Virus record (IMG/VR): IMGVR_UViG_3300047552_001097 | Span: 1-64,000 of that record | Origin: a virus | Reading direction: 5' to 3' (one strand) | Length of the DNA stretch: 64,000 nt | Program-made: the position numbers and the translations under genes | In this document: piece by piece, positions 6,213 through 56,095 of the stretch | Layout of the letters: every line of letters starts with the position of its first letter | Numbering within the stretch: position 1 is the stretch's first letter | The notes under the pieces: model-generated | Databases searched by the model: none | What the model was told of the DNA's origin: nothing | The model's input: only the letters and a program-made list of their open reading frames with translations

Positions 6213-6363
6213 TATTACTTATATACAACTAGTTATATCTATATTTAATAGAGAGGGGGACTTATTAGATTGTATAAGTGAGTATTTACCTAACTCTATA
6301 TCTGTAATAAGAAGTAAGGTAAAGGTGGTTTATAAGATGATAGAGAAGCTAGAACTAGACTAA
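6115..6363 (+). CDS. Hypothetical protein, up to 82 aa, start uncertain
   Basis: The part beyond the upstream gene (about residues 33-82) has normal composition (DITYIQLVISIFNREGDLLD, then a basic helical end), so this end is probably coding. The ATG at 6115 forces a 98-bp overlap with the 123-aa gene, and later ATG codons at 6136 and 6151 are alternatives. The 3' end overlaps the stop of the giant - strand gene by 9 bp. The function is unknown. Confidence 0.45.
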   Translation: MIILYQLMSNHLMIYSCLTQQPIELDSLKIPNDITYIQLVISIFNREGDLLDCISEYLPNSISVIRSKVKVVYKMIEKLELD

Positions 6364-15300: not shown

Positions 15301-18300
15301 AGGTGTAAGGTTATTACTATCTAGCTCCTTTATTAATATATTAACTACATTATTTACTAGAGCTCCATATGACTCATAGTCCTTCTTATATTGATTTAAA
15401 TAGGCTGTAGTCCTAGCATCTACCCCAGCATATATACCTAAGAACTTACTCTTATGTAATTGAGAACCTAGTCTTATATCTGATATGTCATATACTTTTT
15501 TATCTATCCAATCTCTATCCCTTATATCCCCACTTACACTATGTAAAGTTGCACTATCTGATACAACAGATAACATATTAGCAACTATAGTTCTTAATGA
15601 GGATATAGACCCTTGTTCTTGGAAGGATGAACTTACTTGCATAAGGGGTTTAAGTAAGTGCTGATATTCCAGAGCTCCTGTAGACTTAGAACCTATAGAC
15701 TCCTTACTCTCAGAGGCTAGTAGGTCTGTGAATAATCTTATAACTGTAGATTGAGTAGTAAATCCTCTTACCATAGCTCTAACAGCATTAAGATAATCTA
15801 AAGATTCCTTCTCCTCTTTATCTAAAGATGTTAATGACCTTTTCTCTAATAGAGAACCCCTCTCTAGTTTATTAAGGTCCACATCCCCCATAATAGAAGC
15901 TATTTGTTTAATAATTTCATTGTTATTAAAATCTATTTCTGTAGGTATGGTTATGCCATCATTATCATATTTAGATAGTTGGGCTATAAGGTCTAGGGAA
16001 CCAGCTAGTATAGAAGCCTCTCTTTCAAAGGGGTTATCTATTCTAATAAACTCTCTACCCACTAGACCTTTACCTTCTCCTAGATCTGATACTAGTTTTC
16101 TCTCTAACCATGAAGTGATATAATTAATACCCTCTTGTTCCCCTTTAGCTGCTTTAAGTAACATCTGAGAATCTAGTAGAGCTAAGGAAGGTGTCTGTTG
16201 AGTATTAAACAATCCCTTTGTCTTAGATACTAGAGCATTACCAAACATAGAACCAAACTTAGTTCTTATATCTTGGTACTTGTGGTAATTAGGGTCACTA
16301 TCATTGAATATGGCATTTATAGCAGTATCAAAGTCCCCTAATCCAGTAATAGCTCCTACTAATTCAGAGGACCCGTTTAAATGACTAATAACAGTTCCTA
16401 GAGCCTGATTCCTAAAGAAGGAACCCATTTCCCCTTTAATACTAGATTCAAATAGAATCGTATTAATATCCTTCTTTACATCAGAATCCATCCACTCATT
16501 ACCAAAGGCTAGGGCTAAGGATAGTAATAGTTTATTCCCTTTCTTATTAGATATAGTATTAGGATTAAACTCACTTATAAGAGAACGTAATAGCTGTTCG
16601 TTTCTTACTATATGGGAACCATGAGAATAGAAATGACTCTTTAAGTTAGTGGGGTTAAAAAGACCAAATATAGAGCCCACATCTACTTTTGTATATCCAT
16701 CCTGAGTCTTATTGAATTGGGCAGCTAGATAGGAGAAGAAGTCCATGTTTTGATATCTACTATCTTTAATATCCAGGAAGTCAGTGGATGTGAATTTAAG
16801 TACAGCCTTAGCTAGAGTACCAATACCCTCAACTCTTCTACCCCCCTCTAGAATAAAGGAGCGGTTATATACCATTTCCCATATAAGCTGGTTATTATCA
16901 GCATTACCTGTTAATTGTTTAGAGCTTACTAGATATTCTATAGAGTTAGCTGCATTCCTATGCCAAGTCTGTCTATCTAATCTAGAGACATTAGGTAAAT
17001 CATCTATAGTTCTAAAGTTATCTATTACTCCATTAAGGAATGCCACCTGGTCCCTAGAGTCTACCATTGATTTAAGGACATAATGTCCAGACTCTCTATC
17101 TAAAGAATAATACTTATTAAACTCTGTACCTAATACTGCTTGTTTAAGAGTAGATAAAACATCCTTTGATTGATTAATAAGCTCAATAGATTGTTTAACT
17201 CCACTAGTTGTTTCACTTATTAACTCACTAGAGTTACCCCATACTAGAACTCTATTAGTATCAGTATCAAAGGTTATGATATCTCCTTTACGGGCTAGTA
17301 GTTTACCATTAGAGACCCAATCCTCTGATAGTTTAGAGGACTTCTGTTTCTTCTCTGCTTTCTCTATAAAGCCACTCATAGTTCTAATCTTAGACATAAC
17401 CTCCACTCTTTCATTTAGAGGTATGTTCTTATAGCCTTTATATTGTTTTATTAAAGAATGTAACTCTTTAATGTCATCATTACTTCCACCATATAGGGGG
17501 TTGGCATAGGCATAATCACTAAAGTCTCCAGTTAGTTGAACTAATATAACTGGATTAAGTCCTTCTGTTGTACCAGTAAACCCCTTGGTTCCAGAGGCTA
17601 AACTATCAGCACTTCTCGCTCTATATAACAACATAAAGCGAGCTAATGAAATGTCCCCTCTTCTATATTCAAAGTCTTCTTCTTTAAATCCAAAGTCTTC
17701 TTTTAACTCTTCTTTAGCTTGTTCTACTATAGATGCTAACTCACTGGTCATAACCCCTCTAAATCCACTAGCATTTATAATTCCAATACTTAAGTCCTCA
17801 CCTAAGTAACTCTCAGCTTTAAGATATAGATGATTTAGTTTATGTAATATAGTTTGTTTAGATTGATTATTTAATCCTTTTGTTCTATCTATAGCTATTT
17901 CTATTAGTCTATTAAAGGAGTAAAGTCCTATATTATCTTCTTGAACTACTATTTTCAGATTATCCAGGACCTTCTTTGTATTAGTATCTATACCAGAATT
18001 TGTAGTGTTAAGTCTATTAAATAGGGTTTCTACTACTTGAACTTTAATATTTAGACTTCTCTTTTCTATAATATTATTAACATTACCCTTTGTTAAAAGG
18101 GCATAGGATATTTCTTTATCTATTTCATACATACCCCTAGTTCCTAGTTTATTCTTCATTCTTTGGGGTACTTGACTAACTTTCTTAGCAACATTATAAG
18201 TATAAGTAACTATTTCATCACTATATTTAAAGCCACTTCCATCAATAATTCTTTCATATTTACTATCAATCTTTTGGATAAGACTAGATTCAAAGGTACT

Positions 18301-21300
18301 TTTACCCCCCTTTCTTCTATTTCTATATTCATTTAATCTATTAACCATAGCTTCTATACTATGAATCTCTTCATTATATAGAGCTACTTTATACTCATTA
18401 TAGATAGATTCAAAGATATATCTATCAAACTCATCTCTTTTAGTTACATATCCGACCCCACCATATTTAGCAAACTCTACTAAAGCTATATCTCCTATAG
18501 GAGTTTTCTTAATTCCATGTATAGATAAACCCCCTTCTTCTATACTTTCACTTATAGAACCACCTTCTGCTACACCTCTAATAGCTCCTTCTGTACCCTT
18601 ACCAGTAGTATCTGAAGGACCAAATATATAAGGTTGGGCTATAGCAAATCTAAATATATTGCTTATACCATCCCCTCTTTTCTTTAAATTACTAAGGAAA
18701 ACTCTTTGAGACCTATTAATTCCATATAAAGGAGTTTTGAATTCAGCCTGGTTATCTGTATAAGTAGATACCTGTTTCTGTGTAATAAAGGGTTCTAGTA
18801 GTCCAGCTTTAACTAACTTAATGGCATTAATAAAGCTATCATCGTACATAAATTCCCTTCTACTCTCTATAATTCCAAGAGCAATGTCTGATTGAAATGT
18901 ATGTATATCCCCTATTCCCATACTTAAATCGAACCCTTCTCTTATACTTTCTATAACAGCTTCCTTACTAAAGAGTAGTTGTCTCTTATTAGATTCAGAT
19001 AAATTACTATCTTTAAGAGCTCTATTAATAGTTCTAATAGCTTGTAATCCTTTAATAACCCTAGTTCTTATATCTAAGTCATTAGAGTTATCTACTAATT
19101 GATATGACATAAGGGAAGAACTCTTAAGCTGAGAGACTATATCCTCTCCCCCTCTAAGGTTTAAAGAGGCTTTAAATGAGCCACTAATACCTATTCCATG
19201 TCTCTGTTCAAACTTTGTTATTAAATTAGTTATCTCTATATCTGATAGGGAACTAGACCTTAAGAAGTCTCCAGCTATGCCATTATATCTAGATACTCTC
19301 CCATAAGTTAAATACTCTAGATAATCTAACCCAGCTTTACCTAACATACTATTACCCTGAACATTCTCCTTTTTACTTAGAGACCTCATATAATGCAAAG
19401 GTTGAGTTATTAAAGCTCTATAAGTCATCTCCCCAGCTAAAGAAGATATAACGTTAGAAAATGTTTCTATAGGTGTTAGTAATAAACTCTCCCTGCTCTT
19501 TAATGGTTTATATTGAAGACTATAAGAACCATCATCTCTCCTAGTAAAGGAATCTTTACCATAAGGAAGATTTATAGTCTCTTCTTGATTATTAATAAAT
19601 AGACTTTTACCTACTAGCTTATTCTGGTCTATAAGATATATAAACCCACTTTTATTATTTAATCCCCCTTTTAAAGCTGTAACTCTAAAGGAGGAATTAT
19701 TATATGTAACCCCAGCTTTATGTCCACTTATTAATGAACCTGCATTAATATCTACCTGTATACTTATTAGTTCTCCATGTTGACCATAAGATTTCTTTAT
19801 AGATATACCTTCCCCTTTACCTAGTCCCATTTCTTTATTAAGGGCTTCTAGTCTAGCTATAAGAGTGTTAAGAGAAGCTCTATCCACTTTATTAGTCCAT
19901 GAGGCTTTACTAGAGGATAGAGAACTATCTACATTACCTACTTTAGTTCTAGTTAATCTAAACCACTCTCTTTCTAGGTGTTGACCCTCTGAGGCTTTAA
20001 AGTCCTCCATCTCCTCTGACATACTATCTTTACTTCTATATAGAGTCCCCTCTCTTTCACCATATCTCCTCATATCTCTAGCTAGATTAATAATACCCAC
20101 TTCCCCACTAGTAGTATCATCCCCTACATCAAAGGCTAAGGAGGAACTACCAAAGTTAGATGAACCTTGTATAGCTCCTATATGTTTAAAGGAATCATCC
20201 TCCCCTCTATACCTTTGTATGGCAAATATATTCTTTACATGACTCATAGTCTCTGTAACCTCTATAATATTCCCACTAGTTATAGCTAGTATCTGAAGGG
20301 CTGTTCTATAACTAGACTCACTACTTACCTTATTATAGAATCTGGATAATTTATCTCTAGGGTCAATGAATTTATCTATAGATACTCCATAGTTAACTCC
20401 CCCTTTATCTAATCCTAAAAGATTAATAAGGGCTTTAGAGTCTCTATTTACTGCATTAGTAAGAGTTCTTAGAGAACTACTGTATCTATCTTCAAATACC
20501 TTAGAACCTAATCTAACAGTAGATTCATAATCTAGGGAGGTGTTCTCCATTCTACCTAGGAGATAACTAACTTTCTCTATAGTAGGTTCTAGAACTTTAT
20601 CTCTATAGTTTCTAATATCAACAGAGACATAGGCTCTTCCCTTATTAACTAGCTCAAAGAACTTATATTGAATCTCACTTCTATAGATAGAGTCTCGGTT
20701 ATTACCTTTATTCCTTATTAAGAATGTTTCTATAGGTATAGTTCTAGATTTACCAGAGGGACCAAACTCTCCACTATAATCCCCTTTCTTACCATAATAG
20801 ATATCATCATCTAGTTGAAGGAGCCATACCTGGTTAAGGTTAGCGTATAGTTCTATAGGTTTATCATATGTAGATTTACTAGAAGCATATTTAATCATAG
20901 TCCTAAGTCCCTGTCCTATATCCCCGGCATTACCTATTTGATTACCAGTAACAGCTCTTCTAGTTTTAATCTCATTAAGAGCTATCATCCTAGCTTGGAG
21001 GTATAGATGTGTATCTATATACTCCTGTTTCTTCTCCTTTGTCATAGAACTAGAGAAGGAGCTTCTTATATCTAAAGCTGTTCTTTTAACTCCATCCATA
21101 TCTGGAATATAGTAGCTAGATGAATTAGGATTTATTCTATCTAGTCTATTATGAAGAATGATTACTTCTTCATAGTTAGACCCTGCTACTGAAGGACTAT
21201 TACCTACTGGAGAAGTTAAGTTAAAGGAGCCTAACATAGCAAACTTCTCAGTAGTATATAACTTAGGGTGATAGCTGCCACTATCTATAAACTCTAGGTT

Positions 21301-22473
21301 CATATTAGGTAGATAGTTAGCTATAGTGTTATTTATATTACCTGGTGATGTAAGAGTCTCTACATCATTAACTCCTAGGGATATAAGTTTCTCTTTAACA
21401 ATATCCTTTTGAACTCTATAAATCCTTTCCATAATAATAATATTAGGGCCAAGGATTTGATGACCCACCATATTAGCATTACTTCCATTAGAGGGGGCAG
21501 CTAGTCTAATACTAAACTTAAAGTCTCCAGAGGCTATTCTACTAGATTCCCTCTGTAGTTTAGATACTAGTACATCAGATATAGTCTTATTCTGAAGTTG
21601 AAATAGGTCTATAGTTAGTTCTTTATCGGCACTTTCTATAAAAGCAATAGCCATTCTCACACCGGGTTTATATACATAATCACTCTTATCTAGTAACCTA
21701 GTGGAGAAATCTTTGACATAAGAAGTAGATGTAGTAAACCCATAATCCATCCTTTTTAATAGAATCTCTGGATCTGTTCTTATTAATTCATCATGTATCT
21801 TGTTAACTCTATTAGTAACTTGATACTCTTCTCCAGTTAATAAGTGATTTAAAACCCATCTTCCCTTAGCCATTCCATCTAAATCATTAATATTAGGATT
21901 CTCTTTTAGTATCTTAAGACCCCCATATATGTTCTTATTAACTTCATTACTAACTACTTCAGTAGTGTCATGGTCAAATAAATATCTATATGCAACACTG
22001 GAAGTATACCTTTCATACTCTATTCGGCGCTTATCCTTTTCCTTCTCAGATAGAGTTGACTCAAAGAAACCATCATTTAATCCAATATTAAACTCTCCAG
22101 TTATACGATTAATGGCCTTTATCCCACTAGTTGATAGGTTGTATAAATCACTTGAAAAGGCAGAGAATGCGTTTCTAGCTAGAGCTCTAGCTGCTTCTTC
22201 ATATACATCTACCTTATCCTGTAGAATATCCTGTTTAACAACTTGTTTTATATAATCCCTTCTTTGAACCTCTTCCTTCTCTGTGTAATAACCCCTATAG
22301 TTCTTACTAGAACTTACTCCAAAATCCTGATTATATTTATCATCATATTGTTCATTAAAAAGGAAATGGGTATTAATAGTATCTTTTAAATGGTCTCTTA
22401 TTCCTTTCTCATAGAAAGAACCACTTAATATTCTATTATCTGTAGGGTTATTACTCCAATTAGGATAGTGCAT
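6355..22473 (-). CDS. Giant 5,372-aa protein: PLD-like enzyme, coiled coil, candidate single-chain RNA polymerase
   Basis: One uninterrupted frame covers a quarter of the window. Residues about 265-800 carry two phospholipase D/nuclease half-sites: HPK at 402-404 with GSFN at 415-418 and later acidic residues, then HVK at 745-747 with GSSN at 770-773. Residues about 2960-4020 are almost continuous coiled coil rich in E, K, L, I and S. At 4173-4177 lies DFDGD in the context NIGDFDGDPY, preceded by GFRSPPIGG. This resembles the catalytic loop and upstream R-x-P element of RNA polymerase beta-prime/YonO/crAss-like enzymes. A possible beta-like basic element, GFKTRHSG, is at 2610-2617. Hydrophobic stretches occur near 5090-5130, 5170-5190 and 5250-5275. 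I infer a virion protein ejected into the host. A tape measure is the alternative, because the tail assembly chaperone gene is next door. Existence of the gene is certain; the polymerase role is moderately supported. Confidence 0.93.
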   Translation of the reverse strand: MHYPNWSNNPTDNRILSGSFYEKGIRDHLKDTINTHFLFNEQYDDKYNQDFGVSSSKNYRGYYTEKEEVQRRDYIKQVVKQDILQDKVDVYEEAARALARNAFSAFSSDLYNLSTSGIKAINRITGEFNIGLNDGFFESTLSEKEKDKRRIEYERYTSSVAYRYLFDHDTTEVVSNEVNKNIYGGLKILKENPNINDLDGMAKGRWVLNHLLTGEEYQVTNRVNKIHDELIRTDPEILLKRMDYGFTTSTSYVKDFSTRLLDKSDYVYKPGVRMAIAFIESADKELTIDLFQLQNKTISDVLVSKLQRESSRIASGDFKFSIRLAAPSNGSNANMVGHQILGPNIIIMERIYRVQKDIVKEKLISLGVNDVETLTSPGNINNTIANYLPNMNLEFIDSGSYHPKLYTTEKFAMLGSFNLTSPVGNSPSVAGSNYEEVIILHNRLDRINPNSSSYYIPDMDGVKRTALDIRSSFSSSMTKEKKQEYIDTHLYLQARMIALNEIKTRRAVTGNQIGNAGDIGQGLRTMIKYASSKSTYDKPIELYANLNQVWLLQLDDDIYYGKKGDYSGEFGPSGKSRTIPIETFLIRNKGNNRDSIYRSEIQYKFFELVNKGRAYVSVDIRNYRDKVLEPTIEKVSYLLGRMENTSLDYESTVRLGSKVFEDRYSSSLRTLTNAVNRDSKALINLLGLDKGGVNYGVSIDKFIDPRDKLSRFYNKVSSESSYRTALQILAITSGNIIEVTETMSHVKNIFAIQRYRGEDDSFKHIGAIQGSSNFGSSSLAFDVGDDTTSGEVGIINLARDMRRYGEREGTLYRSKDSMSEEMEDFKASEGQHLEREWFRLTRTKVGNVDSSLSSSKASWTNKVDRASLNTLIARLEALNKEMGLGKGEGISIKKSYGQHGELISIQVDINAGSLISGHKAGVTYNNSSFRVTALKGGLNNKSGFIYLIDQNKLVGKSLFINNQEETINLPYGKDSFTRRDDGSYSLQYKPLKSRESLLLTPIETFSNVISSLAGEMTYRALITQPLHYMRSLSKKENVQGNSMLGKAGLDYLEYLTYGRVSRYNGIAGDFLRSSSLSDIEITNLITKFEQRHGIGISGSFKASLNLRGGEDIVSQLKSSSLMSYQLVDNSNDLDIRTRVIKGLQAIRTINRALKDSNLSESNKRQLLFSKEAVIESIREGFDLSMGIGDIHTFQSDIALGIIESRREFMYDDSFINAIKLVKAGLLEPFITQKQVSTYTDNQAEFKTPLYGINRSQRVFLSNLKKRGDGISNIFRFAIAQPYIFGPSDTTGKGTEGAIRGVAEGGSISESIEEGGLSIHGIKKTPIGDIALVEFAKYGGVGYVTKRDEFDRYIFESIYNEYKVALYNEEIHSIEAMVNRLNEYRNRRKGGKSTFESSLIQKIDSKYERIIDGSGFKYSDEIVTYTYNVAKKVSQVPQRMKNKLGTRGMYEIDKEISYALLTKGNVNNIIEKRSLNIKVQVVETLFNRLNTTNSGIDTNTKKVLDNLKIVVQEDNIGLYSFNRLIEIAIDRTKGLNNQSKQTILHKLNHLYLKAESYLGEDLSIGIINASGFRGVMTSELASIVEQAKEELKEDFGFKEEDFEYRRGDISLARFMLLYRARSADSLASGTKGFTGTTEGLNPVILVQLTGDFSDYAYANPLYGGSNDDIKELHSLIKQYKGYKNIPLNERVEVMSKIRTMSGFIEKAEKKQKSSKLSEDWVSNGKLLARKGDIITFDTDTNRVLVWGNSSELISETTSGVKQSIELINQSKDVLSTLKQAVLGTEFNKYYSLDRESGHYVLKSMVDSRDQVAFLNGVIDNFRTIDDLPNVSRLDRQTWHRNAANSIEYLVSSKQLTGNADNNQLIWEMVYNRSFILEGGRRVEGIGTLAKAVLKFTSTDFLDIKDSRYQNMDFFSYLAAQFNKTQDGYTKVDVGSIFGLFNPTNLKSHFYSHGSHIVRNEQLLRSLISEFNPNTISNKKGNKLLLSLALAFGNEWMDSDVKKDINTILFESSIKGEMGSFFRNQALGTVISHLNGSSELVGAITGLGDFDTAINAIFNDSDPNYHKYQDIRTKFGSMFGNALVSKTKGLFNTQQTPSLALLDSQMLLKAAKGEQEGINYITSWLERKLVSDLGEGKGLVGREFIRIDNPFEREASILAGSLDLIAQLSKYDNDGITIPTEIDFNNNEIIKQIASIMGDVDLNKLERGSLLEKRSLTSLDKEEKESLDYLNAVRAMVRGFTTQSTVIRLFTDLLASESKESIGSKSTGALEYQHLLKPLMQVSSSFQEQGSISSLRTIVANMLSVVSDSATLHSVSGDIRDRDWIDKKVYDISDIRLGSQLHKSKFLGIYAGVDARTTAYLNQYKKDYESYGALVNNVVNILIKELDSNNLTPESRIDTIEKINQLMTYNPSENEAIRGIIVDMKDKMGSGFDITGALTLLDNISSRRLLDISRYYQLHSDKPFGAGSVSPILDQLNYKSFAFSLPQIYMSEDSSNDIGGKVRLELDYSQKYYSYLMSGAELKGLGDAYGSYIDEIVSRTIFLASAFAPGTAMSNVRDKIVRAKEEGTGVIELDKEELILLKKFYSYAFGDQGIVNLMAEASAGTRAQAAIGFKTRHSGAVTSSAASWLIPNGSILLAKEALNRYTSASPERYELVSLLENIGNSSSSYKEQNVIRAALLAVRGGLSPLGMSYIDEVLTIKKEVDSLIGKLGSINQEDTAVIEPLNRQANSLLSRLELLSNIQIGKNQGDSLAVELAKLEAERIKRSGLVEGDIEENKAYKRDKTKFNKWKRLSEGSKVYKEGIFLIELEVLEDEINRIKTNKGIVYEKTTKPFLNNEYRYNIPSEFLYKMTLDINNRVSGPAGMDLNIFFSIFQSNLVDYSIFPSIQEDLYYNLPEEVLKLVNEASSIFKERLSKANQLELGNIRRVLQVATGVDSIPVSVLFSEYYKRVQSHIEAYAPTFREINRELRDLNELQRINSSGNDPDSLSRKINQINSLPSLINKREELSSILNSFKALEKSGSFDISSSLDYLNSYLVDIESQVESLNKQRLELLSLKRASEGIDKTLINERIKELNSERTRLTKIVEEGKSLSKIVPDNKTVKRIASFIRGIYSSNLSDVNKEIHYIERTIEEIDSSDSIIYRLKLQESKVKGMRPTRDNLSKLEYELDLIKNSKDIDLEDGYIKSKVKILELERDRISSLIGISEELNSIRDDKNRLIKLREEQINLIEQIQKAKEEGKSGTIMVRPNNEDLLIHGNNLQQIEDRIRKVEQELYIKRANITLEQNSLVGRELFPDIKPSDSTSIVLRKELDKSRNEYSNNSISDLENELNRLNRARTSIQQSIDSTSKSVYLDDYGSRYNSLESKQLELSELEMKYRNATIEFLSSPEAKKRDEEIRERDIKKLESIQQELEEEHKYVNRTISELEGETWLGTTKRLIYQYSREIESRLKYINKIKSSIKIYDRSALETPPWMGLNPSSNGYRILEEDISSYKSRLEILSKIKRNIHLGIHSTEYINKIDKEYTEVKNKLNHLYKVKEYKQDSSRLLLEERELENRLYFLKIAPYEEIADSEWADLTEYKAKLERKQLALTQEISEYESPLELQIKKLDGEIEHLSTRINSIEGLSSLDRYSPVITYLMSREKELKSKYDEINGKAIKEIQSRLGEVDTKSSIQGLSKSISKYKEIIIREEKAASLFLRDIGIDKSIEKREFTRLIESLEINRANIRSEIQEFKKQIHPGNSIEYHSELNQLRELEESITLSINKLIEVRKTTLLEQRSSIISQHRSLKDKVLNIGKEIKLFKEAIRNIFTTYQADTKNQLDELKKRKQELVISQLKLENPSLSEGELETLYKDIDSIKVPKWFGKDKEGNAIEEHQKYIEANENITYEPIKMKLAYIQYRFENIIPQSNQRFKEEYSSIYQHLEGTKDKPGLLQTIESLEGTYKKTKSFSFDEHKYLGGISDIKEKAIVIETALGEYIKSSSSVSQEFSRRARDTFKNSESQIDMLNKNKQGLDDLSSGLAILRKIVKTQSINDTSLKALERIFKSIDPDINIYSLLNINPKLAVTESRVVKGQVVNKYKLTLNESLLSNSIALMEKMMNHLDMRDSIEVLGFRSPPIGGSEQQRMALTVIQDISLLNQAIGQDSMVQYDEERNKGLSLLSPISLLTMNIGDFDGDPYTTIFSQFMDLQRSIESDSIMIKTTEARIRALDTSIDNKVGGLGPLSSYEDRLALEEGIKEEKTRVHILKSEIEEHKVRIANNKAKLYTWRNQLESSSFSKAVKKEVANYLGIRVEHFLGGPEGFQQNDISMNVALTFIEQGRGLFGGLGGTGSSIKKVNSILKDVFINTETTVLSKQQTGIPTTGNNGPNMSLFSYLASVSNAHSGFHLLQDRLKVLAQDETNANRNTYLGILLMGEEAQKDLLDLMYKSIQSIAPNSTSISKEQEEEILARASGLYAARLKSVSSLQSILGQGAGVNMSLTGYDMMVKIMGKAGGDVLGKTYNTFVGTLYQESPLLALSSIIQEESTKQFLRDNDFYNSQGIKEEDFVSSIKRNSDTGEGILAFIKSINQLLRDGIKPKAGGDFIANMERLSSEYESLSDNPDKQRALITREAGKFGPSGSNVGMDVFMQLGSLVRNRETLSEDGRVKLMNGVIVSSFWGGATSTKNEQILASDLSIDNTQYERLVQELNTFGNKEEISAFDIGALKVKRDLESLVIAYRYNITTGASGYDKGEQSSFLDTIFSGYIGIISRELGKDRDQVNGEDIQDFINKRFNSDTAEGSRNLHILSRIFNKNEEDIKSNYLNLDTNKGGAREVLSMLEIINTTTEFTDKMMGKYGEGLSRFTDMEGARQKTISLMGGNSSNTELLGADIWDTMLNLAGSNKLSSHAIPAVWDTFASNEFLKTNFKGNIPLLMTGIKKENGKIVDTFAYKLANMPEEEAKKDFQSRLALFNAIESGSSMEYKDENGNTINTTLEKYLSNKLETTASMAKGRALNEFLTKMYGKKEEIDSYVEGESFIKALLGENHGLSITEIEQIERQYNKATSEYRQHKLASLRTKVDTGSSNAYAQSLTPNFNNLSQAVQFNNINNFMELALPLALTTIGSAVINGTINPDAIGNIVGGTIFSIAYGKKGTSIDPKAMLTKSMIGGSFKLNMALSETDGDLGEAIGLAAAREIGFTLGASVVAPFVEKSAINSMMSLSHLSSYKAQMYREAKLSQLSSNEKLRYLFNSNKGALDYDAMGGKRIAAQSITSAVLSGLFGMVGAGIAGSMMQPITDNQSEFTIIERAIEAIDEQLISEAYSTEQDTNDPDIYSEDGGFIQWEEMVRVSESIFEGDYISNEFSVPEGLFAMVSNNSVVELTIDNSEYEDLV

Positions 22474-33251: not shown

Positions 33252-33982
33252 ATTCTTATCCAATAACTACAGCAGTACCTTCCTTACCTTTCTTATGTAG
33301 ATATATATTCAGACTATTATCTACACATCCCCTAATAATAAATCCACCTATATATCACCCTGTAACAGGAGAAAGAGTTTATATAAAGGGATATAAGTTA
33401 TTTAATGGTATAGAGACTAATCTAGGTTTATATTGTTCTATATTTCCTCACTCTACTCCTACTGATGGTATAAGTCTACCTAAACCAGCAGATACATCTA
33501 CTTCTGTTCTATTTGAGCCCCAAGGTAATGGGTATGATTTAGCAGTATACCATATAGCTCTTAAACTTCACTATAATTTTTCTATATTAGGTAATAAGGA
33601 GACTAATAATGACCTTATAGCTGTACCCTTAGATGCTGCTATACACCCATCTCAGACTCCATATGCTAGAGAGGGGTCTAGAGAGTTAGAACTATACTAC
33701 AGTCCAAGTCTATACATTATTGGTGAGTATTTAGAGTTAATACGATTAGCTATTTTAGATAAAGAACATACATTTTCTATGCCATCTGTTTTTAGAACAT
33801 CAGATATACCAAGAAATATACAGGTTCTTTATTTTAATTTAAAGACTCCACCTTGGGAGAAGGATAAGGCTTTATATTTCCATGAAGGAGAAATACTTAT
33901 TCGTATTGATTCAATCCTATCTAAAGAATGGAAGAGTCAATTTGAAGTTCCCACTGCTTCCTTCCAAGTCTCCGTTTTATAA
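33245..33982 (+). CDS. Tail terminator/neck candidate, 245 aa
   Basis: This beta-rich protein lies immediately before the sheath gene, where contractile phages usually encode the tail terminator (gp15-like) or a neck protein. Features are YHIALKLHYNFSI (a likely strand pair near 105-117), PSLYIIGEYLELIRLAI and a C-terminal SILSKEWKSQFEVPTASFQV. No family is recognised with confidence. Coupled to the upstream gene by overlap. Confidence 0.55.
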   Translation: MLDSYPITTAVPSLPFLCRYIFRLLSTHPLIINPPIYHPVTGERVYIKGYKLFNGIETNLGLYCSIFPHSTPTDGISLPKPADTSTSVLFEPQGNGYDLAVYHIALKLHYNFSILGNKETNNDLIAVPLDAAIHPSQTPYAREGSRELELYYSPSLYIIGEYLELIRLAILDKEHTFSMPSVFRTSDIPRNIQVLYFNLKTPPWEKDKALYFHEGEILIRIDSILSKEWKSQFEVPTASFQVSVL

Positions 33983-34001
33983 TCTTTATTTAATATTATT
34001 T

Positions 34002-36983
34002 ATGTCCATTCCATATATTAAATTCCATGAAGTAAATGATAGTACCTCACCTATATCTCCTAATGCTAGAAATAGAATTCTTATAGCTGGAGAGTTCTCT
34101 AGAGGACCAGCTAATGAGGTAAGGTTTATAGCTAACTATAAGGACTTCTCTGATAGATATGGTTCTGATAATGCTATAGGTTCAACAGCCTTCCAAGCTG
34201 CATGGGACCAAGGGGCTAGAGACTTTGCTCTATTAAGAGTTCTAGGAGCAGGTTCTCCAGCTAAGGGTTATATAGACTTTAATGGTTATGCCTCTAAGTC
34301 TAATGATATGGTTCTAGCTATGAGATTTATAGGGGACCCTGTTATTAGAAGTCTTAGAAAGATACCTACCTCTATTACTACAACTGGTAACTATGTAGGC
34401 TCTGTCTCTGGTAGATACTGGTTTAGAGTTGATGAGAAAGATGATAAAGGTTATTACAATGTAAAATACGTATTTGTACCTATTGGGATAGAGGGTTATA
34501 TAAACTGGTATCCACAGAGTAGAACAGACAAGAATTGGAGTGTAGACCCAACCTTTCCCTTTTCAACTATAGGTGCAGCTTTAATTCAAGAGACATCTAA
34601 TCTATCCTCTATATCATCTTCTCTTCTACAGTTAGTAGGAGCTGAGCCTATAGTGTTCTCTAACACTTGCTTAGATTTAGTACAACCAGGAATGACTTGT
34701 GGACAGGCTCAGGTTAATGGTTGGAAAGTTGTTATTGAAGTAGGGGATATGAGGTGGATATGGCATACTGATAGTGCAGGAGCTACTAAGTTACTAGATA
34801 AGAATAACTCTGGATATACAGGTAATATCCCTGTTATAGTTCCAGGTACTAATGGTGTTGCTTCCTTTAACACTATGGATGGAGTCACCCTAACCTCTAC
34901 CCAAACAGGACAGGATATACCTGCCTCTGGTCTATTTGCTAATTCTACTACTGCTGGAGCTATTAACCCATATATCATTCCAGTTACTGAATCCTTTATA
35001 TTCCATGAAGAGGATACTGGGGCTCCTATATCTGTGGATAATGGGGTGTTTGTTAGATTTGATAATGCTTCTACACAACAGTCTATTCAATTAATGAATG
35101 GGGATATGTGGACTGTTAGAGTTAACTTTGATAAGTTTGATATTCCTATTTATGATGGAGCAACCCCATCTCAAGTTGTTACTTCCATAATGGAGGTTAC
35201 TCAAGGTAGAGAGCCTATTGGGTTAGTAGAGAGAAATGAACTAGATAATGGTCTTATATTTGGTTTAGATGAGACTTTCTTTAATGGTTCTATAGGTAAT
35301 AACTATTCATATTATGTAGAACTAGCTGAACCAGATGGAGAGGTAATCACCCAAGCCTCCTTCTATAGTGGTGAGTTATATATTCAAGTTCCTATCAGAT
35401 ATGGCATATATATCAAACCAGGGGCTGTTGTTTCTTTAGTAGAGAGTGGGGGTATCTATGGGGTAGTTAATGTCTCTAACCCTTTTGACCCTAATGCTAA
35501 TAAACCTATTAGTAGAAACATCCTTAGTCCTAATACTAGAGTTACTAAGGTAGATGCTCCTATCTATGGTGGGGGTCTAGCTACTATATGGTTAGATAAA
35601 CCCGTGATATCAGACTTTGATAGTATAGGTCTATTCCATTTTGCTAATCCTAATGGTCTATCTATCTCTACCTATACTAGCTATATGGCTAAGTTTATGC
35701 AAGGTGGACAGAATGGTCCTACTAGAGCTTCTAGAGACTTATATACAATGGAGGGACTTCCCCTTGTATCTCTATTTGCTATATCAGAGGGAGCGTGGGG
35801 TAATAACTTAAGAATCTCTTTATATCCCTTTGATAACAAGTCTTTTAGATTAATGATAGTAGACCTTAATAAGAATAACTTTGACCCTCCTTTAGCAGAT
35901 GAGATGTTTAATGTCTCATTCGATAGGATAGATGAGCAGGGTGGACTTATAGACCTTTCTACATCTAAGTTTATAAGAGGGGTATTTCTACCTAAGTATA
36001 TTAACAGAAACTTTAATGTTTCATTATTAAGAAAGAGTCCTATGAGGTTAGCTGCACCTGATGATACAGCTACTGACCCTTCAGACTTTGCACATCCTGA
36101 GATGTTTGGTCCTAGAGTTCTATCTACTATTACTCTTGAAGGAGGCTTTGATGGTCCCCCACCTACTGATGCTGACTATATAAGAGCTATAGATTTATCT
36201 AAATCTAGTCCTGTTAATATGCTAGTTCTACCAGGTATATATAGTCCTGTAGTTAAACAAAGGATGATAGCTGCTGCTAATGGTGCTGATGAGTTTGAAG
36301 GTCTACGTATAGCTATACTTAATGCTCCTCCTAGATTAACTCCAGAAGCAGCTAGAGTAGAATCTATAGGTTATGACTCTAAGAGAGCAGTTCTATTAGC
36401 TGGATGGTCTACTTATGGTGGAGCTCTTAATGCTCAGAGATATGGCCTATCTCCAGATGCTCCCTATGCTGGGAAATTAGCTTCTATACCTATTTATGTA
36501 GGACCCCATGCTCGTTCTAGTAGTGGACCTGTATTTGGATTAGCTGAGGTAGATACTCAACCATACACTTCTAAAGCTCAATTAGAGATGTACCATGATG
36601 CAAGGATGGAGGTTATTATGTTAGACCCCATATCCCTATCCTTTAACTTCCTTAATGGTAGAACTACTAGTATGCTAGCTGCATGGGAGAAGGTCTCTTT
36701 TACTAGAGTAGTAGATATGATTCGTATGGACCTAGCTAGAAGTCTTAATCAATATAAGAGTGAACCTAACACTCCTAGATTAAGACAGAGGATAGCTTCT
36801 TCTATTGATGCTTATCTAGGAACTCTATTTAGAAATGGGGTTATAGCTCTATCTACTACAGCTAGTGTTAATGCTAATCCTCAGAATCCAGCAGGTATAC
36901 AAATTAGCTTCTCTGTCGTACCTGTGTACTCAGCGGATTATATAGATGTTTATATTAGTAGAGCTGATTTAGGAGTTTCATAA
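34002..36983 (+). CDS. Tail sheath protein
   Basis: The contractile sheath subunit, unusually large at about 993 aa (T4 gp18 has 659). The open frame reaches upstream to 33882, but this would overlap the previous gene by 101 bp. The ATG at 34002 (MSIPYIKFHEVND) matches the normal sheath N-terminus. Typical elements are RILIAGEFSRGP with YKDFSDRYG, and a C-terminal domain with YKSEPNTPRLRQRIASSIDAY, YLGTLFRNGVIAL and PVYSADYIDVYISR. The insert of roughly residues 150-560 is probably surface domains decorating the sheath. Confidence 0.9.
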   Translation: MSIPYIKFHEVNDSTSPISPNARNRILIAGEFSRGPANEVRFIANYKDFSDRYGSDNAIGSTAFQAAWDQGARDFALLRVLGAGSPAKGYIDFNGYASKSNDMVLAMRFIGDPVIRSLRKIPTSITTTGNYVGSVSGRYWFRVDEKDDKGYYNVKYVFVPIGIEGYINWYPQSRTDKNWSVDPTFPFSTIGAALIQETSNLSSISSSLLQLVGAEPIVFSNTCLDLVQPGMTCGQAQVNGWKVVIEVGDMRWIWHTDSAGATKLLDKNNSGYTGNIPVIVPGTNGVASFNTMDGVTLTSTQTGQDIPASGLFANSTTAGAINPYIIPVTESFIFHEEDTGAPISVDNGVFVRFDNASTQQSIQLMNGDMWTVRVNFDKFDIPIYDGATPSQVVTSIMEVTQGREPIGLVERNELDNGLIFGLDETFFNGSIGNNYSYYVELAEPDGEVITQASFYSGELYIQVPIRYGIYIKPGAVVSLVESGGIYGVVNVSNPFDPNANKPISRNILSPNTRVTKVDAPIYGGGLATIWLDKPVISDFDSIGLFHFANPNGLSISTYTSYMAKFMQGGQNGPTRASRDLYTMEGLPLVSLFAISEGAWGNNLRISLYPFDNKSFRLMIVDLNKNNFDPPLADEMFNVSFDRIDEQGGLIDLSTSKFIRGVFLPKYINRNFNVSLLRKSPMRLAAPDDTATDPSDFAHPEMFGPRVLSTITLEGGFDGPPPTDADYIRAIDLSKSSPVNMLVLPGIYSPVVKQRMIAAANGADEFEGLRIAILNAPPRLTPEAARVESIGYDSKRAVLLAGWSTYGGALNAQRYGLSPDAPYAGKLASIPIYVGPHARSSSGPVFGLAEVDTQPYTSKAQLEMYHDARMEVIMLDPISLSFNFLNGRTTSMLAAWEKVSFTRVVDMIRMDLARSLNQYKSEPNTPRLRQRIASSIDAYLGTLFRNGVIALSTTASVNANPQNPAGIQISFSVVPVYSADYIDVYISRADLGVS

Positions 36984-39935: not shown

Positions 39936-42572
39936 ATGTATAACGATGATGGAGAGTTAGGAAGAAGAAGGCAGTATAACAATAGGATGGAGAGTTCTAC
40001 TAAAGCTGTAAGGGGTAACTTTGAGATTCTATATGGGAAGATAGTGGGACTTATAGGCGCTGAGAGTTATGAACATAAAGGGTTTAACTATCAAGTAGAG
40101 CTTATAGATACAGGACAGTATATTTTATGTAGAAGGTTACTACCCTATGCTTCATATGAGGGAGTAGGAGTTTATCATCCAATGGAGGTAGGAGACCCTG
40201 TAGTAGTAGCTGTTAAGAATGGGGTTATGAGAGATGGGTTGATACTAGGCTCTTTTTTTACAGAAGGTAACTACGAAGAGTTCTATGTAGATGGATTAGG
40301 TGGAGAACCCACTCAATATAATCAGGGGACTCTAAGACAGATGGAGAATAATGCTCCTAGTGTTCATCCTAATAGAGTGGCTCAGCCAGACTCCTTCTTT
40401 CATATAGTAGGGGGAAAGAATGTATTAGAGGCATTCCATGACCCCTCTCTTACTGATGGAAGTATAGATAAAAGGGCTCTTAAAAGGAATCAACCTGTAT
40501 CCATAGAACTAAAGAATAGATTAGGAGACTGGTCTCAATGGGTTTCTGGGGATGCTATTATCTACTCAGACCAGGCTATTATTCTTGCTTCTAGTATGAG
40601 TGGAGCTTCTATTTGTAAGAAGCAAAAGGAGATGGTAGAGTATTATGAACAAATGGCTAAGGACTTAGAATCCTATCTATCCGATAGTAGGTCCTATTCC
40701 CCTATTGATTTATCTCAGGGGGTAACAGGTTTAATATCTGTTACTACAGAGGGGAATATTCCTTTAACAAGTGAGTTAGATGAGGATAAGAGGGTAAAGA
40801 TTAATAAATCAAAGGAGCATAGGTTAAGAAGATATATAAATGGGTATGAGAATCCAGACTTTCTACAATGGGCCCCTTTTATTGAATATCATTTAGTAGA
40901 GATAAAGAGGTTAGCAGAGGAGGCTAGAAAGGGGTTAACTAATTGTAAGGAGAGTGAGTATTTAGTTAATAGAGAAACAGAGGTTAGTAAAGAAATAAAT
41001 AAAGAACTACCCTCTAATGACCAATGTCAGGTTCTATCAGATAATGGTGCAATAGATGATAAGTATATAGAGTCATTAGCTGAGCATTCTATATGTAAGA
41101 AAGGGAATACTAAACACTATCCTTATGTAAAGTGGAAGGCTAATAAAGAAGACTTAGTTAAGTTAGATAGTCTAGCTATTAAGGGTAAAGAAGAAAGGTT
41201 AATTCATAAGGATATAGTTACTCCTTTAAAAGAACTCTTTGATAAAGCTAAGAAAGTTGGTATTAATCTAGCAGCTACTTCTAGTTATAGAGATGAAGAT
41301 ACTTTAGAAGATTCAAATAAAAGAACTTGTACAGACCTTGATGAGACCTCTATCAAATCAGTTGCCCCTTATACTCATAGTGAGCATATAACTGGTTATG
41401 CTCTGGATATTGTAGATAGAGATGATGCAAGTACCCATTCCTTAGATAGTAAGGTAAATAGTAAAGCCTGGGAGTGGTTAGGTAAGAACTTAAAGGATTC
41501 GGACTTTGAGTTGTCATTCCCTAAAGATAATAAACAGGGAGTAAACTATGAACCTTGGCATATTAGATATATAGGAGATAAGCTCCCTAAGTTCTTAGCA
41601 GTAATGTTTGCCTATACAAGGGGTAACACTGATTTAATTAAGGAGTTAGTAGGTAAGTTATGTAAAGATAGACCCCCAGAGTCTAACTCTAATACTAATA
41701 AAGGGAAAGATAGAAGTGATTTAGATATTGATTTACTTATAGATAAGGTCACTAAGGCTAATCCTACTCTAGTCTCTGATAAGACTGGGATTCATTCTTT
41801 TGGAGTAATAGGTAAAAAGACTTTTTTATCTAAGAAAGCTAAAGAGAGTATAGGTCCAGCATCTATTATTAAGTTGAATATAGCTCTAGCCTTTGATAGT
41901 TTGATGAAAGGAACTCCTTTAACTCAATTAAAAAGAAAGTTTGATATAAGTAAATTTCCCATTGAGGTTATAGCTGAGGGAGACTCTTTTAATGGTAGGT
42001 CTGTATTCCTTTTAGAGAATCTAGTAGAAGCTATGTTAAAAGATAGTTCTAATACTGCAACTAATATTCTTTTTCTTTTATTAGGGGAAAGAGATGATGG
42101 TAGGGGTAACTCTGTATTTAATAGAGATAAGTCTAATGAAACTCTAAAGGGAACTAGTCCTTCTACTGAGTTTAATAGGTTATTATCTTCTACTAGTGAA
42201 GCCGAAAAAGCTAAGGATACTACCAATAAATCTACAACGGAGGATGCCCTTAATGCTATGTATAAACTAGCTATATCTAATGTTCCATTAACTAAGGAGA
42301 TTAGTATTCCCGCATTAGGGGAAGCCGAGAGACCTTCTGGATTACAGAAAGTAGAGCTTAATAAGATAGGTTGGAATAGTTATGCTAGTGGTAATGTTTG
42401 TTTATATAAAGGTAAGAAAGGAAGGTTTGTTATAGGTGGATTTACTAACTATGACCCATCTAAAGAAACAGACTATGACTTAAAACTATTAACTCAGGCT
42501 TCTAATTTAGCTATTAAAGCTCTAGAAAGTGGTATTGAATATATAGAACAAATGGAGATAGAGGGATTTTAA
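39936..42572 (+). CDS. Hub spike protein with VanY carboxypeptidase and beta-lactamase-like domains
   Basis: Residues about 25-130 form a gp5/VgrG-like OB fold (FEILYGKIVGLIGAE, then VGDPVVVAVKNGVMRDGLIL). Residues about 400-560 are a VanY/M15B D,D-carboxypeptidase: SEHITGYALD gives H484 and D491, and EPWH gives H542, the usual zinc ligands. Residues about 590-870 resemble class A beta-lactamases and related D,D-peptidases: SIIK (S643, K646), SSN (704-706) and KIG (810-812) match SxxK, SDN and KTG. I did not find a clear E166 equivalent, so peptidoglycan binding or transpeptidase-like hydrolysis is more likely than antibiotic hydrolysis. The arrangement suggests a spike that clips cell-wall peptides. 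Confidence 0.82.
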   Translation: MYNDDGELGRRRQYNNRMESSTKAVRGNFEILYGKIVGLIGAESYEHKGFNYQVELIDTGQYILCRRLLPYASYEGVGVYHPMEVGDPVVVAVKNGVMRDGLILGSFFTEGNYEEFYVDGLGGEPTQYNQGTLRQMENNAPSVHPNRVAQPDSFFHIVGGKNVLEAFHDPSLTDGSIDKRALKRNQPVSIELKNRLGDWSQWVSGDAIIYSDQAIILASSMSGASICKKQKEMVEYYEQMAKDLESYLSDSRSYSPIDLSQGVTGLISVTTEGNIPLTSELDEDKRVKINKSKEHRLRRYINGYENPDFLQWAPFIEYHLVEIKRLAEEARKGLTNCKESEYLVNRETEVSKEINKELPSNDQCQVLSDNGAIDDKYIESLAEHSICKKGNTKHYPYVKWKANKEDLVKLDSLAIKGKEERLIHKDIVTPLKELFDKAKKVGINLAATSSYRDEDTLEDSNKRTCTDLDETSIKSVAPYTHSEHITGYALDIVDRDDASTHSLDSKVNSKAWEWLGKNLKDSDFELSFPKDNKQGVNYEPWHIRYIGDKLPKFLAVMFAYTRGNTDLIKELVGKLCKDRPPESNSNTNKGKDRSDLDIDLLIDKVTKANPTLVSDKTGIHSFGVIGKKTFLSKKAKESIGPASIIKLNIALAFDSLMKGTPLTQLKRKFDISKFPIEVIAEGDSFNGRSVFLLENLVEAMLKDSSNTATNILFLLLGERDDGRGNSVFNRDKSNETLKGTSPSTEFNRLLSSTSEAEKAKDTTNKSTTEDALNAMYKLAISNVPLTKEISIPALGEAERPSGLQKVELNKIGWNSYASGNVCLYKGKKGRFVIGGFTNYDPSKETDYDLKLLTQASNLAIKALESGIEYIEQMEIEGF

Positions 42573-42574
42573 TT

Positions 42575-43042
42575 ATGAAATATAAACTATTAGTTGTTAT
42601 ACATGAGTCTTTAATAACCTTTGAAGAAGTGTTAGAACTAGTGCAAAGTTCTAATATTCAGGGGACATATCATTCATTTATTAGAAGAGATGGAGAGATT
42701 ATTTATTTAGAGGAGTCTACTAAGAATGTAAATGCAGCTATGGAATCTTCTTTTAATGGAGAAGAAATACTAGGTTCAGTAGACCCCTTTGCTTATCATA
42801 TATGTCTAGAAAGTCCTATTAACTGTCCTATTAAAGCAAGAGAACATCTAGGATATACAGACCAACAGTATTACTCATTAGCCTGGTTGATAGCTAGTTT
42901 AAATCCAGAATCTAATAGGATAGTTAAACATAAGGATATAGACACTTCTGGAACTATTTATGATCCTAGGAGTTTAGATATTTTAAGGGTTAAGTCTGAT
43001 ATACCCAAGTTCCTAGCTCATGTTAAACCTATTACTATATAG
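42575..43042 (+). CDS. N-acetylmuramoyl-L-alanine amidase-like protein
   Basis: This has the layout of Amidase_2/T7-lysozyme enzymes at 155 aa: VVIHES (H10), YHSFIRRDGEIIYL, AYHICLES, QQYYSLAWLIASL and a C-terminal KHKDIDTSGTIYDPR (H119, D130). H10 and H119 are the likely zinc ligands, with D130 in place of the cysteine of T7 lysozyme. The enzyme would cut the bond between muramic acid and the stem peptide. It has no signal peptide and lies between spike and lysozyme genes, so it is probably virion-borne or tail-assembled rather than a plain endolysin. Confidence 0.75.
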   Translation: MKYKLLVVIHESLITFEEVLELVQSSNIQGTYHSFIRRDGEIIYLEESTKNVNAAMESSFNGEEILGSVDPFAYHICLESPINCPIKAREHLGYTDQQYYSLAWLIASLNPESNRIVKHKDIDTSGTIYDPRSLDILRVKSDIPKFLAHVKPITI

Positions 43043-43044
43043 AT

Positions 43045-44265
43045 ATGAATGTATTTGAAAAGTATAATGCTCTTAGAAGTAATAAATATGTAATAGCTGT
43101 ACTAAATCTAATATCTTATTATGAATCGGGAGGGTATGGTCATAAGGGATTAGAACAGTATCAAGTGTCATGGGGTGGAGTGTTAGTAGATTTAAAGGCT
43201 AATGCTCCTAAACACCCTTGGCCTGGGGGTGGATGTGCTGAGAGTACAGCTCTACCTAGAGCTGTAGGTAGATATCAATTCTGTGGATATGTATGGGATG
43301 AGATATTAACTTATCAGGGATTAGAGAATCTAGATTTTAGTAATCCAGTACACCAGGATGTAGCTGCTATAGCAAGAATGGATGTGTTTAGAAAGAAACT
43401 AGACTTAGTTCTAGAAGGTAAAATGCTAGAGGCTATTATAGGTACTGATGTAGAAGCAGATGGTCTATCTTGGGAATGGGCAGGTCTACCTCCTGGTAGG
43501 TATAGGGAGAATAGAAATGTACCAATAGAACCTGCTGAGAGAATGCTAGCTGAGTTCTTAACATCTAAGTTACCCTCTGATGGGGGTGATGGCACTTATA
43601 AAGGGGGAGGTTCCTCTAGTAATGGAACTAATACAAGTATTAGTTCGGATGGTTTATCTATTTCTACAGGTCCCTCTTCTATCCTAGGATTTAATATAGA
43701 AACAATAAGGAGTGAGCTATGTTATTCTATGAGATTCTGTAAGGTACTAGGAGGATTTGTTCCTACTAAAGCAGAAAGGATTCTAGGAGGCAATCCCTCT
43801 TTGAATGGTTCTTTAACAGTTTTTTCTCCAGGTTCTAATACTGGTTCTACTCCAGGGAAAATGGGTAAGTTTACTCCCAAAGAAGGTTTTATTAATCCTT
43901 GTCCTTCTATAGCTATGAATAGTCCTTTTGGTTGGAGATGGGGAAGAATGCACTGGGGTCTAGACTTTGCAGGGCCTATAGGTACAGATATAATGGCTTC
44001 TGCTGATGGTGTGGTGGATGAAGCTGGATGGAATGATGGGGGTTATGGTAATTGGGTTATTATTGTTCATCAAGATAGTCCTAGAACTGAGACTCTGTAT
44101 GGTCATATGGACACTACGCCTTTTGTTAAAAAGGGAGACAAGGTTAAACAAGGTCAGGTTATAGGACCTATGGGTACTACTGGGTTTAGTACAGGACCTC
44201 ATCTTCATTTTGAAATAAAACTAAATGGTGAGAAAGTAGACCCAGCCCCTCTTATTGGTTTATAG
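43045..44265 (+). CDS. Lysozyme-M23 endopeptidase fusion
   Basis: Residues 1-180 look like a lysozyme: LISYYESGG with the likely catalytic E27, and AVGRYQF (73-79). A Ser/Gly linker follows. Residues about 280-406 are a complete M23 (lysostaphin-type) peptidase: H303-x3-D307, a central GYGNWVIIVH, YGHMD with H354, and GPHLHFE with H386 and H388. The enzyme would cut both glycan chains and cross-links. Within the tail gene set and without a signal peptide it is probably a tail lysin. Starts 2 bp after the amidase stop. Confidence 0.88.
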   Translation: MNVFEKYNALRSNKYVIAVLNLISYYESGGYGHKGLEQYQVSWGGVLVDLKANAPKHPWPGGGCAESTALPRAVGRYQFCGYVWDEILTYQGLENLDFSNPVHQDVAAIARMDVFRKKLDLVLEGKMLEAIIGTDVEADGLSWEWAGLPPGRYRENRNVPIEPAERMLAEFLTSKLPSDGGDGTYKGGGSSSNGTNTSISSDGLSISTGPSSILGFNIETIRSELCYSMRFCKVLGGFVPTKAERILGGNPSLNGSLTVFSPGSNTGSTPGKMGKFTPKEGFINPCPSIAMNSPFGWRWGRMHWGLDFAGPIGTDIMASADGVVDEAGWNDGGYGNWVIIVHQDSPRTETLYGHMDTTPFVKKGDKVKQGQVIGPMGTTGFSTGPHLHFEIKLNGEKVDPAPLIGL

Positions 44266-54988: not shown

Positions 54989-56095
54989 ATGTTTGATTTA
55001 ATAATTGTAGGGGCTGGACCTAGGGGTATAGGTTTAGCCCTTCAAGCTATAGAGAGAAGTTTATCTGTACTAATAATAGACCCAGAACCTTTATCTACTT
55101 GGAGGAATATCCCAATAGATATAAATATGAGAAGTCCTATAGGATTTGATTTAGTATCCTTTATGCCAGAGTATAGACAATATAGTTTATCAACTTATCT
55201 AGGTTCTTATCAAGAGTTTAATAATCAAGAGGATATAGAAAGGTCTACGAGTGTAGTAACTAGACAGCACTTTATTAACTATATGGAGTTTATGTGGAGT
55301 AGAGTTTTATCTATATGTAGTTATAAACAGGACAAGGTTATTAACATATGGCCTAATAAAGTTATGACTACTAAGGAAGTATATAGAGGTAAGAATGTGG
55401 TTATAGCCTATTCCCCTATTAAGGCTAAGAACCCTAATTGGTTGAATCTAGAGTTAAAGAGAAAGCTAGTTACTGCTAAGGATATAGATTCTATAAATAA
55501 CTCTCTTATCTGGGTTATAGGTAGTGGACAAAGTGCCGCAGAGTATGTTTATTCTTTATGTTCTAAAGGTAATACAGTCTATTGGTTTAATAAGAAAACT
55601 CCTAGAGTAGACCAGTACCCTGCGCCTAGTTATAATCATTGGGGTTATAAGAGTGCTCTAGGCCCTTACTATAGGAGTATTAAAGAGAATAAGGAGGCAG
55701 CTATGAGATATATGAAGGATATAAAGAGATGGCAACCATCTATTACTCCAGATATAGATACTAAGTTATCTACAGTTAAAGATAGATATAAGGTTATACT
55801 AGATAACCCCTCTTCTATAGAGGTAAATATGGATTATATTTTTCTATGTAATGGAGTTAACTCTAGTGTTGATTTAGTACCATTAGCCTTACCAGTAGAT
55901 AGACATATTTATAACAATGATTTACCTCTTTTACATACAGGATTTAGAAGCTCCTTATCTAACGAAAGGAGTGGAGGGAAGGGGGGTTATATCTTTACAG
56001 GGTTACTGGCTTCTTTATATGATGGACCTAGGCAAGGAAGTTTAATCTCTATAGGGTTAACATCTAAAGAGATATTAGATAATATTAATTTATAA
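54989..56095 (+). CDS. FAD/NAD(P)-dependent oxidoreductase
   Basis: Two dinucleotide-binding motifs are clear: GAGPRG at 8-13 for FAD, followed by an acidic strand end (VLIIDPEP), and GSGQSAAEY from G178 for NAD(P)H. The pattern DINMRSPIGFDL and TRQHFINYMEFMW is like flavin monooxygenases and the SidA/IucD/PvdA group. Near the end is LLHTGFRSSLSNERSGGKGG. The 368-aa length fits a stand-alone enzyme. It lies between two baseplate genes in the same operon, with no obvious horizontal-transfer signature. It could modify a host metabolite, a tail component, or be incorporated in the virion. Confidence 0.8.
   Translation: MFDLIIVGAGPRGIGLALQAIERSLSVLIIDPEPLSTWRNIPIDINMRSPIGFDLVSFMPEYRQYSLSTYLGSYQEFNNQEDIERSTSVVTRQHFINYMEFMWSRVLSICSYKQDKVINIWPNKVMTTKEVYRGKNVVIAYSPIKAKNPNWLNLELKRKLVTAKDIDSINNSLIWVIGSGQSAAEYVYSLCSKGNTVYWFNKKTPRVDQYPAPSYNHWGYKSALGPYYRSIKENKEAAMRYMKDIKRWQPSITPDIDTKLSTVKDRYKVILDNPSSIEVNMDYIFLCNGVNSSVDLVPLALPVDRHIYNNDLPLLHTGFRSSLSNERSGGKGGYIFTGLLASLYDGPRQGSLISIGLTSKEILDNINL

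Follow-up and report, generated by a model that had tools for sequence, protein, structure and literature searches.

Why would a phage tail protein carry what looks like a penicillin-binding domain, and beside it a peptidase of the VanY type? The question is posed by an 878-amino-acid ORF in the 64,000-nt stretch analysed here (the window), which is part of the 171,917-base (171.9-kb) virus record IMGVR_UViG_3300047552_001097. A sequence-only reading of the locus had proposed a tail spike, with no described counterpart known, that joins class A beta-lactamase or D,D-peptidase motifs to a VanY zinc site and may recognise or cut D-Ala-D-Ala stems during penetration. The ORF itself is real, being uninterrupted on the + strand from an ATG start with no internal stops. 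A second contig (IMG/VR 3300049844_000054, 9.2-kb) is identical and has the same ORF with zero differences, though the two may share a dataset of origin.

The virus and its host

The virus is a cyanophage related to Microcystis phage LMM01. Of the annotated phages, Microcoleus phage My-WqHQDG and the Microcystis phages LMM01/MaMV stand nearest to it, and among 50,697 phage records there was no close DNA relative. A cyanobacterium is the very probable host, since the record encodes a homologue of NblA (30.7 bits, cutoff 25) and, besides, a chlorophyll-binding peptide that is Hli-like.

A baseplate protein and its neighbours

What kind of tail protein is involved? The N-terminal region matches the Microcystis phages (tblastn, E 2e-24), and both its PHROG 30576 profile match and a conserved position after the sheath genes place it with LMM01-type baseplate proteins (Table 1). 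The earlier term 'spike' was thus loose while the tail-tip context that it implied stands: a gp5/VgrG-like OB match (Phage_base_V) at residues 65-108 is weak (20.1 bits, below the cutoff of 23.8), as is that of the N-terminus to 9gtr (E 0.13). An AlphaFold model of residues 1-585 built on 7 sequences is of low confidence (mean pLDDT 41). The tail sheath gene upstream fixes the context as that of a contractile tail. Gene order is common to LMM01, My-WqHQDG and this virus, the sheath being succeeded by the next gene, a large gene, the baseplate protein and then an amidase and/or an M23 peptidase.

Table 1. Features of the baseplate ORF and of its surroundings (window coordinates)
Feature	Position	Strand	Basis or remark
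Tail sheath, contractile-tail context	33882..36983	+	PHROG 30392, E 9e-151
Complete baseplate-protein ORF, 878 aa, including the VanY and Beta-lactamase2 domains	39936..42572	+	
LMM01-type baseplate region, residues 1-282	39936..40781	+	PHROG 30576, E 1.5e-29, residues 73-282
VanY (M15) zinc peptidase domain, residues 422-548	41199..41579	+	PF02557
Beta-lactamase2 domain, residues about 604-867	41745..42536	+	PF13354
SIIK (S643-K646)	41862..41873	+	aligned with catalytic SxxK of cellular members
SSN (704-706)	42045..42053	+	aligned with SDN
S744, position of class A Glu166	42165..42167	+	alignment to 3lez
KIG (810-812)	42363..42371	+	aligned with K[T/E/I/S]G
Amidase_2 ORF, 155 aa, directly downstream of the baseplate ORF	42575..43042	+	
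M23 peptidase ORF, 406 aa	43045..44265	+	Pfam E 7.5e-34

Two further observations concern this neighbourhood. By eye the N-terminal part of the M23 ORF (43045-43614, +) resembles a lytic transglycosylase of the lambda type; searched against PDB sequences, that part gave no match. Within the tail/baseplate region there is also a 368-aa ORF (54989-56095, +) that matches models for lysine/ornithine monooxygenase and for FAD/NAD(P) oxidoreductase (E 4.5e-14), as well as PHROG 29209 (function unknown), an odd location for such an enzyme.

The zinc peptidase domain

The VanY assignment is firm. The PF02557 match is nearly full length (profile 3-132 of 132; E 6.8e-26, 91 bits against a cutoff of 25), and the zinc ligands H484, D491 and H542, which the sequence-only reading had correctly placed upstream of the serine domain, are intact and are joined by the base E539 (motifs HSEH at 481 and EPWH at 539). 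The module is accordingly a predicted zinc peptidase, of a type for which sequence does not separate D,D- from L,D-carboxypeptidase or endopeptidase. It was absent from all 5 of the relatives searched, of which two are fragments much shorter than 100 kb, and this counts against the role that we favour below.

An exchangeable C-terminal half

Across these phages the same baseplate N-terminus carries four different C-termini. In the window protein it is the VanY and Beta-lactamase2 pair; in My-WqHQDG (WOL31302, OR578706) and in IMG/VR 3300007517_000005 (L005) it is Beta-lactamase2 alone; in a further relative, L006, it is an Amidase_2 domain with 41% identity to the Amidase_2 ORF that stands by itself in the window; and in the Microcystis phages it has a weak, below-cutoff match to Amidase_3. 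My-WqHQDG and L005 thus resemble the window in baseplate N-terminus, in Beta-lactamase2 and in the amidase and M23 genes downstream, and differ in having no VanY. Ma-LMM01 gp094 and MaMV-DC gp095 share the N-terminal family, the gene order and the adjoining M23 gene; however, their weakly Amidase_3-like C-termini have neither a VanY nor a beta-lactamase domain. The C-terminal half of the baseplate protein is therefore an interchangeable module, predicted to attack the wall.

Is the serine domain homology real?

The motifs SIIK, SSN and KIG were found exactly where the sequence-only reading had put them (residues 643, 704 and 810). As proof of a serine domain the three by themselves had to be rejected: shuffling the same residues yields the SxxK..SxN..KxG triple, in order and with similar spacing, in 1286 of 10000 trials (12.9%), and a signature that 13% of shuffles contain is weak. 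Nor is the Pfam match of the window protein more than partial, covering residues 631-780 and profile positions 13-148 of 214 (PF13354, E 2.1e-6, 27.7 bits against a cutoff of 22); that of L005 is stronger (56.4 bits, profile 10-211).

What takes the domain beyond chance is profile-profile homology to PF13354. Genome scans for close cellular relatives yielded only one distant Staphylococcus protein, and the phylum of Staphylococcus pseudoxylosus, as source of this sole cellular match, was chosen to supply the genomes for a comparison set of 31 PF13354 and 20 DacA-type proteins. Against the 31, a profile of the three phage domains scored 82.7 (probability 97%, E 2.8e-11), the best of 20 column-shuffled controls reaching 21.6, and the window sequence by itself scored 44 across 184 columns. 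S643-IIK, SSN704-706 and K810-I-G sit on the catalytic columns in the joint alignment, with which pairwise hhalign is concordant. DacA-type D,D-carboxypeptidases were rejected as nearest kin (profile score 53.8 versus 82.7, separate clade): in a tree with long branches, window row included, the three phage domains cluster together (99/95), with PF13354 and apart from DacA. These comparisons support homology of the serine domain to PF13354. Three points weigh against the role proposed below, namely the weak PF13354 match of the window domain taken alone, its long branch and the low confidence of the structure models, the one for the serine domain (2 sequences) having a mean pLDDT of 32.

What might the serine domain do?

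Class A enzymes require Glu166 to deacylate fast; D,D-peptidases are independent of it, and a second motif of the SSN/SNN type is found in many penicillin-binding proteins. In the window domain the omega-loop ExxLN with its Glu166 is missing, the position being serine there and N or D in the relatives (joint alignment). The second motif of the phage domains is SSN or SNN, not SDN, and the window domain, with 14.3 bits, does not come near the NCBIfam class A beta-lactamase cutoff of 200. These three grounds make lactam hydrolysis less likely than a role of the D,D-peptidase-like or penicillin-binding kind, so that of the family resemblance proposed earlier, which PF13354 homology upholds, the D,D-peptidase branch fits the better.

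The reading that we favour, and judge moderately probable, is that in a contractile-tail cyanophage this baseplate protein forms the hub or tail tip, its C-terminal half being an exchangeable peptidoglycan-attack unit that would act at entry. Sequence shows the baseplate membership, the two domains, the aligned catalytic residues, the exchange of modules and the host genes of cyanobacterial type; we infer the protein's location in the virion, the timing of its action, its catalysis and its substrate to be as follows. Contraction of the sheath would push the baseplate protein into the periplasm, where the VanY zinc peptidase may shorten stem peptides or cut them, and where the serine domain, as a D,D-carboxypeptidase or endopeptidase, may attack D-Ala-containing peptides by way of an acyl-enzyme at S643; with the amidase and the M23 peptidase encoded next door, the two would loosen the wall. 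The earlier suggestion that the protein recognises or cuts D-Ala-D-Ala stems during penetration is on this footing plausible.

Might the serine domain grip rather than cut? It could be a binder of D-Ala-D-Ala stems, slow or non-catalytic, that anchors the tail tip through a lasting complex, or by mere grip, with the cutting left to VanY, amidase and M23. Absence of Glu166 favours this, although most of the sampled cellular PF13354 proteins are in the same position (ExxLN in 3 of 31) and D,D-peptidases manage without that residue. My-WqHQDG, alone of the three phages, is without KxG and has a short gap there relative to L005 (L001:9003-9869), so catalysis may not be general. Between these two relatives the domain is nevertheless under purifying selection, with a dN/dS of 0.19 (simple Nei-Gojobori, dS about 1.2) beside 0.13 for the baseplate N-terminus by the same simple method, which would be compatible with a binding role. 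Retention of SxxK, SxN and KxG in both the window and L005 tells against it, and we regard such a binder as unlikely, if worth keeping in mind. A variant in which tight or covalent holding of the stems by the penicillin-binding-type domain would turn the wall unit into a docking signal by which the adjacent zinc peptidase is brought into position is a long shot.

The two domains might instead be late recombination passengers unimportant for entry, or a decaying remnant. Their patchy distribution and the lost KxG of one relative would suit this; the intact catalytic sets in the window, the dN/dS value just given and the conserved position beside other wall enzymes do not, and we rate it very unlikely. 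A true beta-lactamase that protects or helps the host against lactams is hardly credible, PF13354 membership and the class A enzymes among the profile matches notwithstanding, given the class A features that are missing and fusion to a baseplate protein at the site where relatives have wall amidases.

Precedents and meaning

How new is such a protein? Beyond the window protein and its identical contig the VanY and Beta-lactamase2 fusion was not found, and a literature search that had most subscription journals outside its reach gave no description of a baseplate protein that joins VanY to a serine domain of class A type. The pair thus seems new, as had been supposed, although each kind separately was already on phage tails. 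Mycobacteriophage tail proteins with a beta-lactamase-fold domain have been described, among them Omega gp39, which is present in virions (PMC3706429), and Tweety gp19 (PMC2884959), to which a match occurs in 1120 phage records; one cyanophage relative even carries the annotation 'beta-lactamase enzyme family protein'. The novelty is therefore smaller than first supposed. These minor tail proteins share with the window protein a serine domain of beta-lactamase fold on a tail protein. Tweety gp19, however, matches PF00144 (class C-type), preceded by a weak fibronectin match, and has no VanY, whereas the window protein matches PF13354 only. For a Propionibacterium phage with such a tail domain, cleavage or remodelling of the wall at entry has been proposed (PMC5831693). 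Vibrio phage 'beta-lactamase domain' ORFs were set aside as precedent, not being baseplate fusions of the window type, and the very paper that describes them concludes that a functional lactamase is unsupported (PMC5107563).

On the peptidase side, carboxypeptidases are rare phage products according to a review (PMC6116005). TagX of the Acinetobacter T6SS is a VanY-superfamily peptidase needed by a contractile machine and proposed to serve in crossing peptidoglycan (PMC5061870). It resembles the window protein in superfamily and in this proposed service; unlike it, TagX is membrane-bound, targets the producer's own wall and has no serine domain.

The baseplate of these contractile-tail cyanophages is thus seen to be a slot for exchange of unrelated wall enzymes, a penicillin-binding-type serine domain included. 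If active, that domain would mean that phage tails have recruited the beta-lactamase fold twice and separately, from PF13354 here and from PF00144 in mycobacteriophages. Would a beta-lactam that blocks the tail enzyme slow phages of this type?

Other features of the record

At the end of the record (L077, G000 near 171030) the NblA homologue and the Hli-like peptide are clustered with an ORF that by eye is macro-domain-like, and an ORF resembling the latter lies within the tail module of L005 (L005:4378-4875, -). A single minus-strand frame at 6355-22473 (-) encodes 5372 aa, and its 16 kb make up about 9% of the 172-kb record.
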